Source of the DNA: an uncultured SAR86 cluster bacterium
GTDB taxonomy: Bacteria > Pseudomonadota > Gammaproteobacteria > Magnimaribacterales > D2472
Direction: 5' to 3'
Length of the DNA stretch: 64,000 nt
NCBI GenBank assembly: GCA_902623535.1
Contig: CACNUA010000004.1
Span: forward strand, 23,390-87,389
Positions 11,854 to 19,327 of this stretch are shown piece by piece. Numbering within the stretch: the stretch's first letter is position 1; every line of letters begins with the position of its first letter. Made by a program: the position numbers and the translations under genes. The notes under the pieces are model-generated. The model was not told the origin of the DNA. It worked only from the letters and a program-made list of their open reading frames with translations, and made no database searches.

Positions 11854-13089
11854 ATGTTCAAATTACCCATATCGTTGGGTATTAGATATCTGACATCATC
11901 AAAAGGGGCGTATGGCTCCTTTTATTCAATTATATCAATTATTGGATTAACTATTGGTGTCGGTGCATTAATTATTGTTTTATCTGTTATGAATGGATTT
12001 GAGCGTGAGTTACAAACACGTATTTTGGGAGTCATTCCGCATGCTTTAATCAAGTCTGATAATCCTATCAACTATAACGATAAGACAATAATTGATACAT
12101 TGAATGTTGAGGGTGTTGAAGCCTACGGCCCATATATTGAGCTTCAGGGACTAATAGGTAGTGATGATCGATCAAGAGGAGTTTTTATCTCAGGCATTGT
12201 TCCTGAATCTGAAAACAAAATGTCCATACTTCCAGAATTTATGGTCAGGGGATCATTAAATGATCTAAAAGACAAATCTGGTGTTGTTATTGGATCATGG
12301 CTATCAAGATATCTAAATCTTTCAATGGGTGACGAAGTTACTGTATTTACTAATACAACTAGAACAAATATTTTTGGAACTTACCCCAGAACAATAAAAA
12401 CTAAAATTGTTGGAATATTTGAACTTAATGCTGAGCCTGATCAGAGTCTGGTCTTAATACACCATAATTTTGCTAGAAATTTAGTTAGCCTTGAGGAAGG
12501 CTATACATCTAGCATTAGAATTAAAACGAAGAACCTTTTTGAAGTTGATAGGGTTGGGTATAGCGTTATTAATCAACTTCCAACAGATTATTTCTTCAGT
12601 ACCTGGAAATTAACTCAAGGAACTCTCTTTAAAGCAATTCAAATGGAGAAAAGATTAGTAAGTTTACTCATGTTTTTAATCGTTACCGTTGCTTCTTTCT
12701 TAATTCTTACAGCTATAGTTACAACCGTTAAGTCCAAAGAAAGAGAGATAGCTGTGCTGAAAACTTTAGGAATGAGGAATTTGGATATAACAGTAATATT
12801 TCTTACTCTGGGCTTATTAATTTCTTTGATTGGTATAACCCTTGGCCTCATTTTAGGGATTATCATTACTTTGAATCTAAATAATATTATTTATTTAGCA
12901 GATGTTTTATTTAATTATAGATTTCTTGATCTTGACGCATACTTCATAAGTTATTTCCCTTATGAATTCAGATTAAATCAATTTGTCTTAACCACAATAT
13001 CAGCAATGATATGTTCAATATTATTCGCGATTTATCCTTCTGTTAAGGCCTCAAAACTTGAACCGGTTGAAATTCTTAGATATGAATAA
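11854..13089 (+). CDS. lolC: LolC/LolE-family lipoprotein-releasing ABC permease (only one copy here)
   Basis: N-terminal IGIRYLTS..., GGALIIVLSVMNGFERELQ-like motif, 4 TM FtsX/LolE topology; adjacent to lolD. Confidence 0.88.
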   Translation: MFKLPISLGIRYLTSSKGAYGSFYSIISIIGLTIGVGALIIVLSVMNGFERELQTRILGVIPHALIKSDNPINYNDKTIIDTLNVEGVEAYGPYIELQGLIGSDDRSRGVFISGIVPESENKMSILPEFMVRGSLNDLKDKSGVVIGSWLSRYLNLSMGDEVTVFTNTTRTNIFGTYPRTIKTKIVGIFELNAEPDQSLVLIHHNFARNLVSLEEGYTSSIRIKTKNLFEVDRVGYSVINQLPTDYFFSTWKLTQGTLFKAIQMEKRLVSLLMFLIVTVASFLILTAIVTTVKSKEREIAVLKTLGMRNLDITVIFLTLGLLISLIGITLGLILGIIITLNLNNIIYLADVLFNYRFLDLDAYFISYFPYEFRLNQFVLTTISAMICSILFAIYPSVKASKLEPVEILRYE

Positions 13090-13744
13090 AATAAAAATCA
13101 TTGAATTAACTAAAAATTATCAATCGAATAAGCAAAATCAGTTGGTTTTAGATAATCTCAATGGTGAAATTAATTTGACTGGTTTAACATCTCTGCAAGG
13201 TAAATCTGGATCAGGCAAATCAACGCTAATGCATATTTTATCAGGGCTTTTAAAACCTACATCGGGTCGTGTTCTGGTTAATGAGATAGAAATCTATAAA
13301 ACTAAACCGATAGAGCGTTCAAGTCTTATTTCATTTGTTTATCAATTTCATGCCTTGTTAGAAAATCTATCGGTATATGAAAATATTTATCTACCCAGGA
13401 AAATACATAAAAATATTGGCTCAGATGAATTTATCAATGATTTAATTAGTCAATGCAAGCTAGAAAAATTACTTAAAAAGTATCCTAGTGAATTATCCGG
13501 TGGAGAGAAACAAAGAGTATCTATTGTTAGGGCCTTATCAAATAAACCAAAATGTGTTCTTTTGGATGAACCTACGGGTAATCTTGATGATGAAACATCT
13601 TCAAGTGTGCAGGAAATGTGTCTTGATATTAATAAAGCCTTCAATATCGGCATGTTTGTAGCGACGCATGATAGAGGCTTTGCAAGTAAAATGCAGTACC
13701 AGTATAAAATAGAACATAAAAGGTTGATGGTGATTAATGATTGA
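13082..13744 (+). CDS. lolD: Lipoprotein-releasing ABC transporter ATPase LolD
   Basis: Walker A GKSGSGKST, LSGGEKQRVSIVRAL, LLDEPTGNLD; likely start ATG 13082, overlapping the lolC stop. Confidence 0.9.
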   Translation: MNKIKIIELTKNYQSNKQNQLVLDNLNGEINLTGLTSLQGKSGSGKSTLMHILSGLLKPTSGRVLVNEIEIYKTKPIERSSLISFVYQFHALLENLSVYENIYLPRKIHKNIGSDEFINDLISQCKLEKLLKKYPSELSGGEKQRVSIVRALSNKPKCVLLDEPTGNLDDETSSSVQEMCLDINKAFNIGMFVATHDRGFASKMQYQYKIEHKRLMVIND

Positions 13745-14342
13745 TTATTTAACAGCTGGTGGTTGGTTCATGCTGCCTTTATTAATTTGCTCAGTTTTAT
13801 TAATTTCAATTATTATTGAGCGTATATGGTTTTTACAAAAAAGATTGGTTAGTCCTGAAGGCCTTCTAAGGACTTTTATTAATCACTCAAAAGATCAATC
13901 TATAACTATTCAACAACAGGATTCATACGTTGAATCATCTTCACTTGGCGAACTCTTAGTGACAGCCTACCGATTCAAAGATAAGCCAAGAAATATAGTT
14001 GAAGATAAGGTTGTGGAGGCATCATCAAACGTCAGAATGAAACTTGAAAGAAACCTTAATATGCTCGGTATAATTGCTAGTATTAGCCCTTTATTAGGAT
14101 TGCTTGGAACTGTGGTTGGAATGATTACTGTATTTGCAAACATAAATCTTGTTGATGGCTCATCAAATAGCGATCTTTTGGCATCCGGTATATCTGAAGC
14201 CCTAATAACAACTGCTTTTGGTTTGTTAGTTGCTGTTCCCGGACTTATTTTTTATAAATATTTCTCAGCACGAGTCAATCTACATATGTTAAATATGCAA
14301 AATGAATTAAGTAAGTTTGTTGATTTTCTAGATTTTAAATGA
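13737..14342 (+). CDS. exbB: MotA/TolQ/ExbB-family proton channel protein
   Basis: LGLLGTVVGMITVF and EALITTAFGLLVAVPGLIFY motifs. Confidence 0.9.
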   Translation: MIDYLTAGGWFMLPLLICSVLLISIIIERIWFLQKRLVSPEGLLRTFINHSKDQSITIQQQDSYVESSSLGELLVTAYRFKDKPRNIVEDKVVEASSNVRMKLERNLNMLGIIASISPLLGLLGTVVGMITVFANINLVDGSSNSDLLASGISEALITTAFGLLVAVPGLIFYKYFSARVNLHMLNMQNELSKFVDFLDFK

Positions 14343-14746
14343 ACTTTGCTACTAAAAATCAATCTAACGATGTCACCATTGAGATTACTCCGTTAATTGA
14401 TATTGTTTTTTTACTAGTAATATTTTTTGTTGTGACTTCAAAAATTGATACAAATCAGGCGCTCAATATTGATTTGCCAGAAACATCGTCCTTTTCATCG
14501 GTATTGGTTGAAAATCAAGAGATGATTTATCTATATGAATCAGGAAAATTAAGATATGGAGATATTTCAGTGGATATTGAATCCAGTGAAACACTAATTA
14601 CCTTTATATCAAGCCAAATCCCAAAATCAGAATTAATAACATTAGCTATAGAAAAACGTGCGTATCATGAGTGGGTTCTCCAATTAATGGATGATCTTCA
14701 ACTTTCTGGATATCAAAATATTCAAATTAGGACTTATCAGGAATAA
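14339..14746 (+). CDS. exbD: ExbD/TolR-family biopolymer transport protein
   Basis: TPLIDIVFLLVIFFVVTSKI TM segment with conserved Asp. Confidence 0.9.
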   Translation: MNFATKNQSNDVTIEITPLIDIVFLLVIFFVVTSKIDTNQALNIDLPETSSFSSVLVENQEMIYLYESGKLRYGDISVDIESSETLITFISSQIPKSELITLAIEKRAYHEWVLQLMDDLQLSGYQNIQIRTYQE

Positions 14747-17502
14747 TGAAATCAAATATTAAAAGATTATTCTCATATACCTTGAGATATAAGTTATCTT
14801 TTACAGTTTCAATAATTGGTTTCCTAATCTTTGCGGCTGCTGATGTTGCTGCAGTTGAATGGATTAGAAGAGTAATTGAGTTCATCAATTCTAGTGACGT
14901 TGTTAATCCTTTGTTTATAGCAATTGCATTGATTTTAATTGCATTTGCAAGAGGCTTAGGATTTTTTATTGGTAATTATTTTATGTCCCGAGTTGGCTTG
15001 GGAATCGTTCATGATATGAGAAATGAACTTTTTAATAAGTTAATTAAGCTTCCAAAAATTTATTTTGATAATAACCAAAGCGGTCAACTTATTAATCGGA
15101 TAACATTCACAACAACTCAAGTGTCTGGGGCAACTTCAAATGCAGTCAAAACTCTAGTTAGAGAAGGCGCATTATTCATCGGATTAATCTCCTACATGTT
15201 TTATTTAAACTGGAAATTAACCCTTTTATTGCTAATAACAGCGCCATTTATAGCAATTATAGTAAATATTGCCGGTCGTCGTCTAAGAAAATTAGCTAAA
15301 AGTATTCAAACAGCAATGGGTGATGTAACCCATATTGCCTCTGAGGCTGTTGAGGGTAATACGGAAATTAAATCATTTAACGCAGAAACCTATGAAAGAG
15401 ATAGATTCCAAAAGGCAAATACCTCAAACAGAAATCAAAATTTGAAGCTTGAGGCTACAAGTAACCTTGCAACACCGATTATCCAAATTCTTGTATCTAT
15501 TTCATTAGGAATTGTTGCTTATTTTGCATTAGGTGCTCAACTTGGAATTAACTTAGATTCTGAAACATTTGTAGCTTTCTTTACGTCTGCTGGTTTAATG
15601 GCAAAACCAATTCGACAACTTTCTAGTATTAATGCAATCATTCAAAAAGGTCTTGCTGCAGCTGATGAAATTTTTGATCAGTTGGATTCATCTGATGAAA
15701 ATGATCAAGGAACACTCGAACCATTAATTGAAGGCAAGATTCAATTTAATAACATTACTTTTGGTTATGAGCGCTCAAAAGATATTCTAAAAAATATCAA
15801 TCTTGTAATTGAAAATAATGAAACTGTAGCAATTGTTGGTAAATCAGGTTCAGGAAAATCTACACTAGCCAACTTAATCTCAAGGCTTTACTTGCCATCA
15901 ACTGGACTAATATCTATAGATGGTATTGATATAAATGAAATTAATCTAAGGTACTTAAGAAGTCACATTTCAATTGTTAGTCAAAATCCAACTCTCTTTA
16001 ACGATACTATTGAAAAAAATATTGCTTATGGCTATCAAGATATAAATTTAGAAAGACTCAATCAGGCTGCTGAACTCTCAGGCTGCATGGAATTTATAGA
16101 AAAACTTCCTGAAGGTTTTAATACTGAAATAGGTGATGATGGTGTTTTACTTTCAGGTGGTCAGAGACAGAGATTAGCGATAGCCAGAGCTTTCTATAAA
16201 GATGCCCCAATCATTATCCTTGATGAAGCTACTTCTGCACTAGATTCAGAATCCGAGTTAGTAGTTCAATCTGCAATTGAAAAGCTCATCGTAAATAGGA
16301 CTACCATAATCATTGCGCATCGACTCAGTACCATAGAAAGCGCTAATAAAATATTTGTAATTGATGATGGTCGCATTGTTGAGCAAGGGAATCATGCAGA
16401 ACTAATTGATAGAGATGGAATTTATAAAAATTTATATAAAAATATGGATTCTAATCAAGTTAAAACAGCTGCCGTAATTACTAAAACAGAAAAATCTTAC
16501 TTGCCAACATTTGTAGAAGAACCTGCTCAGCAAGGTATGCTCTTGGATGCATGGTATAAGAGAAGTGTATGGTTATGGTTATTATCTCCTCTCTCATTAT
16601 TATTCTCCTTTTTTGTTAGATTAAGAATTAATTCATTTAAAGAAAATTCAAAAAAAGTATGGAAACCTAATGTGCCAGTAATTGTTGTAGGTAACATATC
16701 TATGGGAGGTACAGGGAAAACCCCACTTGTTAAAATGCTTGCTCAAAAGCTATCAGAAGAAGGTTTCTTACCTGGTATTGTCAGTAGGGGTTATGGTGGT
16801 AAATATTCTGAAACCTTAGAAGTTACAAGCGATACAACATTCAAACAAACTGGAGATGAAGCTCAAATATTGGCTAAATTAAAGCTACCATTTTTCATTG
16901 ATAAAAATAGATCTAGGGCAGTTAAAAAATTACTCAATAAATATCCCCAGACTAATGTAATTTTGTCTGACGACGGCTTACAGCATTATGCTCTTGGAAG
17001 GGATATAGAAATTGCTGTTATTGATGGTGCGCGCAGACTGGGTAATGGCTTAACCTTTCCCGCTGGACCACTAAGAGAACCTCGAAGTAGATTAAATGAT
17101 GTTGACTTTGTCGTTAATAATGCAGGTCCAGCTGAAGAAGGAGAGCATCTTATGACTCTTGCGCCAGCAAAATTTGTTCACCTGAATTCAGGTAAATCAT
17201 ATGACATTGGTAATTGGCCAATGCATTATCAGGTTCATGCTGTTGCAGGATTAGGTAATCCAAATAGGTTTTTCGATTTATTAGGCAGGCTTGGCTTTCA
17301 ATTTGATAAAAATCCTTTTCCTGATCATCATAAATACAAGAAACAAGATATCTTATTTTTAGATCATCTTCCAATTATCATGACTGAAAAAGATGCTTCT
17401 AAATGCAAGGATTTTAAAAATTCTAAAATATGGTATTTAACTATTGAAGCTGAAATTGACGATAAGTTTTTTGATCAATTAAAGGAGAAATTGCATGTTT
17501 AA
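14746..17502 (+). CDS. msbA-lpxK: MsbA-LpxK fusion: lipid A flippase ABC transporter (about aa 1-575) fused in frame to tetraacyldisaccharide 4'-kinase (about aa 598-918)
   Basis: One uninterrupted 918-aa ORF. N-part has ABC TM domain, GKSGSGKST, LSGGQRQRLAIARA, ILDEATSALD. C-part has WYKRSVWLWLLSPLSLLF, GNISMGGTGKTPLV, SRGYGG, LSDDGLQHYALGRD, FPAGPLREP, MTEKDASKC. Confidence 0.93.
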   Translation: MKSNIKRLFSYTLRYKLSFTVSIIGFLIFAAADVAAVEWIRRVIEFINSSDVVNPLFIAIALILIAFARGLGFFIGNYFMSRVGLGIVHDMRNELFNKLIKLPKIYFDNNQSGQLINRITFTTTQVSGATSNAVKTLVREGALFIGLISYMFYLNWKLTLLLLITAPFIAIIVNIAGRRLRKLAKSIQTAMGDVTHIASEAVEGNTEIKSFNAETYERDRFQKANTSNRNQNLKLEATSNLATPIIQILVSISLGIVAYFALGAQLGINLDSETFVAFFTSAGLMAKPIRQLSSINAIIQKGLAAADEIFDQLDSSDENDQGTLEPLIEGKIQFNNITFGYERSKDILKNINLVIENNETVAIVGKSGSGKSTLANLISRLYLPSTGLISIDGIDINEINLRYLRSHISIVSQNPTLFNDTIEKNIAYGYQDINLERLNQAAELSGCMEFIEKLPEGFNTEIGDDGVLLSGGQRQRLAIARAFYKDAPIIILDEATSALDSESELVVQSAIEKLIVNRTTIIIAHRLSTIESANKIFVIDDGRIVEQGNHAELIDRDGIYKNLYKNMDSNQVKTAAVITKTEKSYLPTFVEEPAQQGMLLDAWYKRSVWLWLLSPLSLLFSFFVRLRINSFKENSKKVWKPNVPVIVVGNISMGGTGKTPLVKMLAQKLSEEGFLPGIVSRGYGGKYSETLEVTSDTTFKQTGDEAQILAKLKLPFFIDKNRSRAVKKLLNKYPQTNVILSDDGLQHYALGRDIEIAVIDGARRLGNGLTFPAGPLREPRSRLNDVDFVVNNAGPAEEGEHLMTLAPAKFVHLNSGKSYDIGNWPMHYQVHAVAGLGNPNRFFDLLGRLGFQFDKNPFPDHHKYKKQDILFLDHLPIIMTEKDASKCKDFKNSKIWYLTIEAEIDDKFFDQLKEKLHV

Positions 17503-17662
17503 AGACGAAATTCTAGACATATTGGTTTGCATTAAATGTAAAGGTAAATTAATTAAAAATGAAGAAAATCTAGAGTGCCATTCATGTAAGATTTATTATC
17601 CTATTGTAGATTCAATTCCAAGAATGGTTGAAGAGGCCATCAAGCCATTAAATGATGAATAA
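17495..17662 (+). CDS. Trm112/YcaR-family small protein (55 aa)
   Basis: Not in the supplied ORF track. Translation MFKDEILDILVCIKCKGKLIKNEENLECHSCKIYYPIVDSIPRMVEEAIKPLNDE; CxxC...CxxC; canonical position between lpxK and kdsB. Confidence 0.88.
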   Translation: MFKDEILDILVCIKCKGKLIKNEENLECHSCKIYYPIVDSIPRMVEEAIKPLNDE

Positions 17663-18386
17663 TTTTCACATCATTATTCCAGCAAGATTAGAATCAACTC
17701 GATTAAAAAATAAAGTTTTATTAGAGATCAATGGCAAATCAATCGTTCAATTGGTTTACGAAAAAGCTCAATCCATCAATCCACTCTCAGTTACTGTTGC
17801 AACTAATCACAAAGATATATTTGATCACATAAAATCTCTTGGGGGTGAGGTTTTAATGACTTCATCTGATCATCAATCTGGAATGGATAGAGTTAACGAA
17901 ACAGCATCATTACTTCAGATTAGTGATGACGAAACGATTCTGAATCTTCAAGGTGATGAGCCATTAATGCCAGAGAACATAATCATCGATACAGGGAACT
18001 CAATACAATCCAACATTATCATTGCTACAGCTGCATGCCTATTATCTGATAAAAATGAGATTACCGATCCAAATAATGTGAAGGTTGTTACAACCAATAA
18101 TAATTATGCTCATTACTTTTCAAGATCTTTAATACCTTATAGCAATGAGGTTTCAGATATAACTTATTATAAACATTTAGGCATTTATTCTTATAATCGA
18201 GGTACTTTACAAGAATTGGCAAATTTAGATGTTACATATCTTGAAAAGACTGAGAGGTTAGAGCAACTAAGATTTTTAGATTATGGTTATAAAATCTATG
18301 TAAACAAATACGATCAAACTGCACCAATTGGTATTGATACCCATAAAGATTACAAGAAAACTTTATCAATCTTAAGTGAAAGATGA
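17652..18386 (+). CDS. kdsB: 3-deoxy-manno-octulosonate cytidylyltransferase (CMP-KDO synthetase)
   Basis: IIIPARLESTRLKNKVL, NLQGDEPLMP, LGIYSYNRGTLQ, EKTERLEQLRFL. Confidence 0.95.
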   Translation: MMNNFHIIIPARLESTRLKNKVLLEINGKSIVQLVYEKAQSINPLSVTVATNHKDIFDHIKSLGGEVLMTSSDHQSGMDRVNETASLLQISDDETILNLQGDEPLMPENIIIDTGNSIQSNIIIATAACLLSDKNEITDPNNVKVVTTNNNYAHYFSRSLIPYSNEVSDITYYKHLGIYSYNRGTLQELANLDVTYLEKTERLEQLRFLDYGYKIYVNKYDQTAPIGIDTHKDYKKTLSILSER

Positions 18387-19327
18387 CTTTAAGATCATCG
18401 TTTGGGATAAGTTTTAAACCTAATAATTATTTAGAAGTTACCACTGCGGATCTAAAACAAAAACTTCAATCAATTGATACTACAAAAGCTATAATTCTAG
18501 GTGAGAATACCAATTCAATTTTTAATGAGTCCGTAGAATTCGATTGTGTTAGGTATATTGATAATGAACTATCAGTTGATGGTTCTTCTATCACAGCAGG
18601 TGCTTCAATAAATTGGCATGAATTAGTAAAAATTTCCATCAATAATAATTTATATGGACTTGAAAATTTAGCGCATATTCCAGGTAGTGTTGGCGCTTCA
18701 CCAATTCAAAATATTGGTGCCTATGGTCAAGATGTTTCACAGGTTATTAAATTTGTTGAATGTCTTGATTTGGAATCATTAGAAACCTTTCAATTAACCA
18801 ACAGTGAATGTAATTTTTCTTATCGATCATCAATTTTTCAATCTAAAAAATATCTAATTACAAAAGTTTCATTTGAACTTGAAACTATTTTCAAGCCAAA
18901 TTTGAGCTATAAATCTCTTTCAGAGTATGTGAAGAAAAACTCAATAAATATTTCTAAAGAGAATATTATTGAAACTATTGGAAAAGTAAGAGCCATAAGA
19001 CTTCCTGATATTAAACTCCTACCAAATTGTGGCAGTTTTTTTAAAAATCCAATTATTGATATTGATCAAGATGTTGATTCAAAGATACATATTATTGAAA
19101 TTTCTGAATCATCTAAAAAATTATCAGCAGCCAGCATGATTGGTTATGTGAAACATAAACTTAAGTTGCAAGGTGGAATCGAATTACATAAAAATCATGA
19201 TTTAGTCTTAACTAACCCTAAAAATGCTTCGTTTAATGAGCTACTTGAATCAATTAAATCGATAAAAAATAGTGTCTTTAATGAGTTTGGTATTCATTTA
19301 CAAACTGAGCCAATAATTTACAAATGA
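18383..19327 (+). CDS. murB: UDP-N-acetylmuramate dehydrogenase
   Basis: LAHIPGSVGASPIQNIGAYGQD, YRSSIFQ, NCGSFFKNP. Confidence 0.93.
   Translation: MTLRSSFGISFKPNNYLEVTTADLKQKLQSIDTTKAIILGENTNSIFNESVEFDCVRYIDNELSVDGSSITAGASINWHELVKISINNNLYGLENLAHIPGSVGASPIQNIGAYGQDVSQVIKFVECLDLESLETFQLTNSECNFSYRSSIFQSKKYLITKVSFELETIFKPNLSYKSLSEYVKKNSINISKENIIETIGKVRAIRLPDIKLLPNCGSFFKNPIIDIDQDVDSKIHIIEISESSKKLSAASMIGYVKHKLKLQGGIELHKNHDLVLTNPKNASFNELLESIKSIKNSVFNEFGIHLQTEPIIYK

Follow-up and report, generated by a model that had tools for sequence, protein, structure and literature searches.

How the synthesis of lipid A is matched to its export is the question raised by a locus of an uncultured SAR86 bacterium, a member of one of the commonest bacterial groups of the ocean, in which the lipid A 4′-kinase LpxK and the lipid A-core flippase MsbA are read as one protein. 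LpxK makes lipid IVA, MsbA exports the finished lipid A-core, and a lag in the late steps lets toxic intermediates build up. We asked whether this join is genuine, how far it extends and where it came from, and what it might do.

A single open reading frame encodes a complete MsbA and a complete LpxK

In the 64,000-nucleotide stretch of DNA that was analyzed (the window), an open reading frame of 918 codons plus stop (msbA::lpxK; 14746–17502, forward strand, as are all features below) runs from ATG to stop in a single frame and encodes a complete MsbA followed by a complete LpxK. The N-terminal part (residues 6–565; 14761–16440), comprising a transmembrane domain and then an ABC ATPase domain, matches the TIGR02203 profile over positions 3–567 of its 572 with a score of 637.1 bits, above the curated equivalog cut-off of 602. 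The second-ranked model on this half, NF008381/PRK11176.1, scores 548 bits, below its cut-off of 867; it is taken to describe a narrower group than TIGR02203. The C-terminal part (residues 598–918; 16537–17499) is matched by TIGR00682 over residues 611–907 (model positions 3–310 of 324) with 237.6 bits against a curated equivalog cut-off of 91.95, and by PF02606 with 327.7 bits against a cut-off of 27 (model positions 2–327 of 328). Both halves can also be aligned to solved structures, the first to those of MsbA (e.g., 9bd6, 3b5x, 7met) and the second to that of Aquifex aeolicus LpxK (4ehx). The proposal of the earlier note, which had read a true in-frame fusion of two complete domains from the letters alone, is borne out by these above-threshold matches in one frame. 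An AlphaFold2 run on a four-sequence alignment of the fusion returned a pLDDT of 30.

The motifs expected of both families are in place. The MsbA Walker A motif, read off the translation, is GKSGSGKST (residues 365–373; 15838–15864), and the signature and Walker B motifs are likewise present; among 17 aligned diverse fusions the checked ATPase residues of the Walker A, Q-loop, signature, Walker B and H-switch (K371, Q413, S470/G471/G472, D493/E494, and H525, respectively) are invariant. In the LpxK part, the GGTGKTP Walker A (residues 654–660; 16705–16725) is seen in the translation, the alignment of fusions and the structure alignment, and the DDGLQH motif (residues 742–747; 16969–16986) supplies the Walker B aspartate pair and the lipid-phosphate histidine; both had been picked out in the earlier note. 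The segment that corresponds to the N-terminal membrane-associated helix of LpxK, a helix needed for activity, is present and alignable (residues ~603–630; WYKRSVWLWLLSPLSLLFSFFVRLR). The catalytic and substrate residues described for A. aeolicus LpxK (K51, T52, R72, D99, E100, R119, D138, D139, H143, and H261; PMC6286764) correspond in the 4ehx alignment to K658, T659, R681, D704, E705, R722, D742, D743, H747, and H861 of the fusion, and all ten are invariant across the same 17 sequences. On every criterion that sequence allowed us to apply, both parts belong to known families; both halves look functional, and from family knowledge two activities and a dimer would be expected. In the window's genome, a draft of 1.2 Mb in 36 contigs that is 71% complete, we found neither a second LpxK match nor a second close MsbA, the other ABC matches being at most 35% identical.

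The fusion is conserved throughout the SAR86 order

The SAR86 group makes up the order Magnimaribacterales, in which four families are recognized (PMC11582366). Searches with the whole protein against 61 genomes, namely the window's own and 60 relatives, recovered full-length single-frame matches, of the kind that the earlier note had suggested seeking, in 52 genomes, with identities of 98 to 45% and with all four families (f1–f4) represented. That note had also allowed for a stop or frameshift near 16480–16540 in relatives; the opposite was found, the frames being open. The closest named relatives (AG-447-K20, AG-917-F05, AH-324-F14, and TMED104, which are SAR86 single-cell and metagenome assemblies) are 95–97% identical over the LpxK part. 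Of the remaining nine genomes, four gave partial matches, mostly at contig ends, and five gave no such match.

A search with PF02606 over the 117 genomes of the order that are at least 80% complete detected LpxK in 97, and in 92 of these it lies inside one open frame of 913–966 aa. The other five are either cut at contig ends (G099, G105, G057, and G100) or broken (G074), and none of the 97 has an intact separate lpxK. In G074, a SAR86 genome of few contigs, the LpxK part (L116; contig 1, ~459263–460107) is in pieces with internal stops, probably as a result of sequencing errors. The 20 genomes lacking an LpxK match look like assembly gaps, because MsbA runs off the contig end in three of them (G009, G014, and G027) and LpxC is present in nine of the ten that were tested; loss of LPS in these genomes is, on the same observations, not supported. 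The joining of MsbA and LpxK is real, old and common to SAR86 as a whole, having been present in the ancestor of the order.

The linker between the two domains is open, variable and restricted in length

The earlier note had placed 20–25 residues between the domains; the linker exists but is longer, with ~32 residues in the window's protein (residues 566–597; 16441–16536). It is variable and hydrophilic, and is stop-free in all 52 SAR86 copies (48 non-redundant), in which indels are of whole codons only; the chance of a random stretch of the same composition and length being open is 0.08. Approximate dN/dS values from close family-f1 pairs (40 pairs, some from duplicate records) are 0.126 for the linker versus 0.036 for MsbA and 0.063 for LpxK, and the substitutions in the linker are rich in synonymous changes. 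To judge from the alignments, the linker is translated and constrained. It is at the same time the most variable and least conserved part of the fusion, and its length, measured between residues 566 and 603, is 35–41 residues in three families and 27–28 in family f4.

Comparable fusions arose independently in other Gammaproteobacteria

Running a profile of the fusion over 370 gammaproteobacterial genomes, 365 of them outside the SAR86 order, we found that six of the 365 carry MsbA and LpxK in an unbroken frame; they are distributed over five families: G203 (f86), G183 (f66), G462 and G374 (f151), G164 (f47), and G293 (f160). The junctions of the non-SAR86 fusions were read directly at loci L105, L158, L159, L104, and L154–L157. 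These proteins share with the SAR86 versions the unbroken frame and the identical domain order, but fall outside the SAR86 clade and have linkers that cannot be aligned. The case of G183 (L104) is less certain, with two Ns in the linker and further Ns in the codon of the LpxK Walker A. Within f86, three genera have the unbroken frame (L105, L158, and L159) while the sister genus G321 has separate genes in different frames (L170), a pattern of either a recent gain or a loss inside one family. The high-GC genomes G468 (950 aa) and G291 (687 aa) have long LpxK frames that were rejected as fusions, MsbA lying in another frame.

In phylogenies built from MsbA plus LpxK, the SAR86 fusions come together in one clade (SH-aLRT 99; 100/98 in a second tree), and the grouping of all fusions in a single clade is rejected (AU test, p=1.8 × 10–6; p=0.0014 for the second tree). 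Five changes of state are needed on the tree, at least three of which are forced by well-supported branches. The phylogeny points to independent fusion in several other lineages, with a single origin rejected. Since the f47 fusion, which comes from the one genome representing that family and sits on a long branch, groups with SAR86 (97/88), the fusion event of SAR86 may slightly predate the order itself, with f47 perhaps its sister.

A simple route to such fusions is loss of a stop codon, as many species have the two genes in phase with one stop between them. This was the arrangement, with exactly one intervening stop, at 13 of 14 loci with separate genes, a figure that is no frequency because the loci were picked partly for matching in this way. 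At loci L160–L162, L164–L169, and L171–L173 of other Gammaproteobacteria, one mutation or readthrough of the stop would yield a fusion.

Proposed function of the fused protein

We favor the reading that the fusion works as a bifunctional single polypeptide, and put its probability at roughly 0.85. As in other MsbA proteins, the transmembrane and ATPase domains would pair into a homodimeric lipid A-core flippase. A flexible linker of ~30–40 residues (27–28 in f4) would start at the C-terminal end of each of its ATPase domains and return to the membrane surface. The N-terminal helix of LpxK would dock there, and each flippase dimer would carry two tethered 4′-kinase domains. The latter would convert tetraacyldisaccharide-1-phosphate to lipid IVA, WaaA and LpxL/M homologs encoded elsewhere would finish Kdo-lipid A, and the MsbA domain would then flip it. 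The arrangement would have originated when the msbA stop codon between abutting in-phase genes was lost, before the SAR86 families diverged. That a whole order and several other lineages carry LpxK and MsbA in one reading frame is natural evidence that the two are able to function in 1:1 proportion while physically joined; the gene also offers a ready-made construct for asking whether the proximity of kinase and flippase matters.

Proximity and a fixed ratio are consequences of fusion; either might also be useful, in that a forced 1:1 ratio together with co-localization could match the supply from the kinase to the capacity for export. We hold a selected benefit of this kind only tentatively, at somewhat under an even chance. 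Usefulness is favored by three observations, none of them decisive: no reversal was seen among 92 genomes, other lineages have acquired such fusions as well, and linker length is restricted. About equally likely, at close to an even chance, is that both halves work and joining them brings no functional coupling, the stop loss having been tolerated and fixed, after which the separate LpxK start decayed and reversal became hard; this neutral course fits the data almost as well as coupling. It agrees with the single stop between in-phase genes of many gammaproteobacteria, for which one point mutation is enough, with the weakly conserved linker sequence, with the repeated origin of fusions, with the intervention of the WaaA and LpxL/M steps between the two activities, and with the small, streamlined genomes of SAR86 (PMC11582366). 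It accounts less readily for the absence of any separation in the 92 genomes of a deep order, though a split needs just a stop and a start, or for a linker length held within narrow bounds in each of the families, although both observations are compatible with neutrality.

The bifunctional polypeptide could conceivably act as a regulatory hub, with control passing from the conformational cycle or the substrate occupancy of the flippase to the tethered kinase, or in the opposite direction, or with the fusion nucleating a complex with WaaA and LpxL/M; we regard this extension as unlikely. The regulation of LpxK itself has been described as unclear (PMC12444477). Were the hub true, the rate of export would set the upper limit on the commitment of lipid A, and LPS flux in these very abundant ocean bacteria would be under post-translational control.

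Less probable still is that the two halves function as separate proteins, either because translation also begins internally, at LpxK, or because a protease cuts the linker. The window's own species does retain an ATG (Met598; 16537–16539), possibly the former start of a separate lpxK, with a poorly placed Shine-Dalgarno-like sequence, and has a TTG at 16543 that is preceded by AAGG; the linker, as the most variable part, could be a cleavage site. However, that ATG is not kept in most relatives. When the 12 codons leading up to the conserved LpxK Trp603 were inspected in the 48 non-redundant SAR86 fusions, 35 of the fusions lacked ATG, GTG, and TTG alike, suggesting that most relatives can make LpxK only as part of the fusion, having no start codon for it alone. 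Nor did comparison of the SAR86 linkers reveal a cleavage-site-like motif common to the families, as would be expected of a cleavage site.

Channeling of lipid IVA straight from LpxK to MsbA, bypassing WaaA and LpxL/M, is more doubtful again. Suppressor strains of Escherichia coli do export lipid IVA, making LpxK the last absolutely required step (PMC6286764). Against this, each of nine SAR86 genomes tested, the window's included, has one copy of a WaaA-type gene (PF04413), and each of nine has one or two lipid A acyltransferase genes (PF03279); furthermore, kdsB lies directly downstream of the fusion. The caution of the earlier note, that the two steps are separated by the action of KdtA/WaaA and LpxL/M, therefore applies here, both families being found in complete SAR86 genomes. 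With these homologs present, a direct hand-off is unlikely, and the lipid IVA that the LpxK domain produces would be expected to be glycosylated and acylated before MsbA flips it; as the same genes show, the fusion is not explained by a lack of intermediate enzymes. Finally, that a stop was missed or a frameshift arose at the junction through assembly or sequencing error, for which the 71% completeness of the draft might speak, has a negligible probability, assembly error and chance being excluded by the assemblies of relatives across the order (single-cell genomes, metagenome bins, and single-contig genomes), in which the frame is unbroken, and by the synonymous-rich substitutions of the linker.

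Comparison with known systems and gene neighborhood

Compared with described MsbA proteins, the fusion has the full-length transmembrane and ATPase domains and the invariant ATPase motifs of this ABC exporter; however, those proteins and the solved chains (569–607 aa) are free-standing, whereas here a linker and LpxK are added at the C-terminus. Similarly, it has the full-length domain of LpxK (tetraacyldisaccharide 4′-kinase; TIGR00682, PF02606), with the segment of the N-terminal helix and all catalytic residues of the literature, but this LpxK is without a start of its own and is attached by its N-terminus to the ATPase domain of MsbA. In agreement with the earlier note, which knew of no described MsbA-LpxK fusion, we found none in open-access full texts; databases may list the architecture without comment. 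The main text of the paper on SAR86 isolates (PMC11582366) mentions neither msbA, lpx genes, nor fusions. A whole order of very abundant marine bacteria ties the kinase to the flippase, and several other lineages have done likewise independently.

The fusion gene lies in a run of genes that begins with a lolD-like ABC ATPase gene (13058–13744), whose homologs are likewise placed in relatives, followed by exbB/tolQ-like (13737–14342) and exbD/tolR-like (14339–14746) genes, both named from sequence. The TAA stop of the latter overlaps the ATG of the fusion, the first base of which is the last base of that stop codon. Downstream, a gene for a small ycaR/UPF0434-like protein (17495–17662) overlaps the 3′ end of the fusion and is succeeded by kdsB-like (CMP-Kdo synthetase; 17652–18386) and murB-like (18383–19327) genes. 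The order lolD-(exbBD)-msbA::lpxK-(ycaR)-kdsB-murB is kept across the SAR86 families. Around the pair it matches the gammaproteobacterial exbB-exbD-msbA-lpxK-ycaR-kdsB cluster, with the difference that the latter encodes two polypeptides where SAR86 has one; in E. coli the arrangement is ycaI-msbA-lpxK-ycaQ (PMC10328246). The exbB/exbD-like pair found upstream in f1 has no match in most f2, f3, and f4 loci (L120–L137), and the ycaR-like gene is absent downstream of the fusion at some loci, in part of f1 and in f3 and f4.
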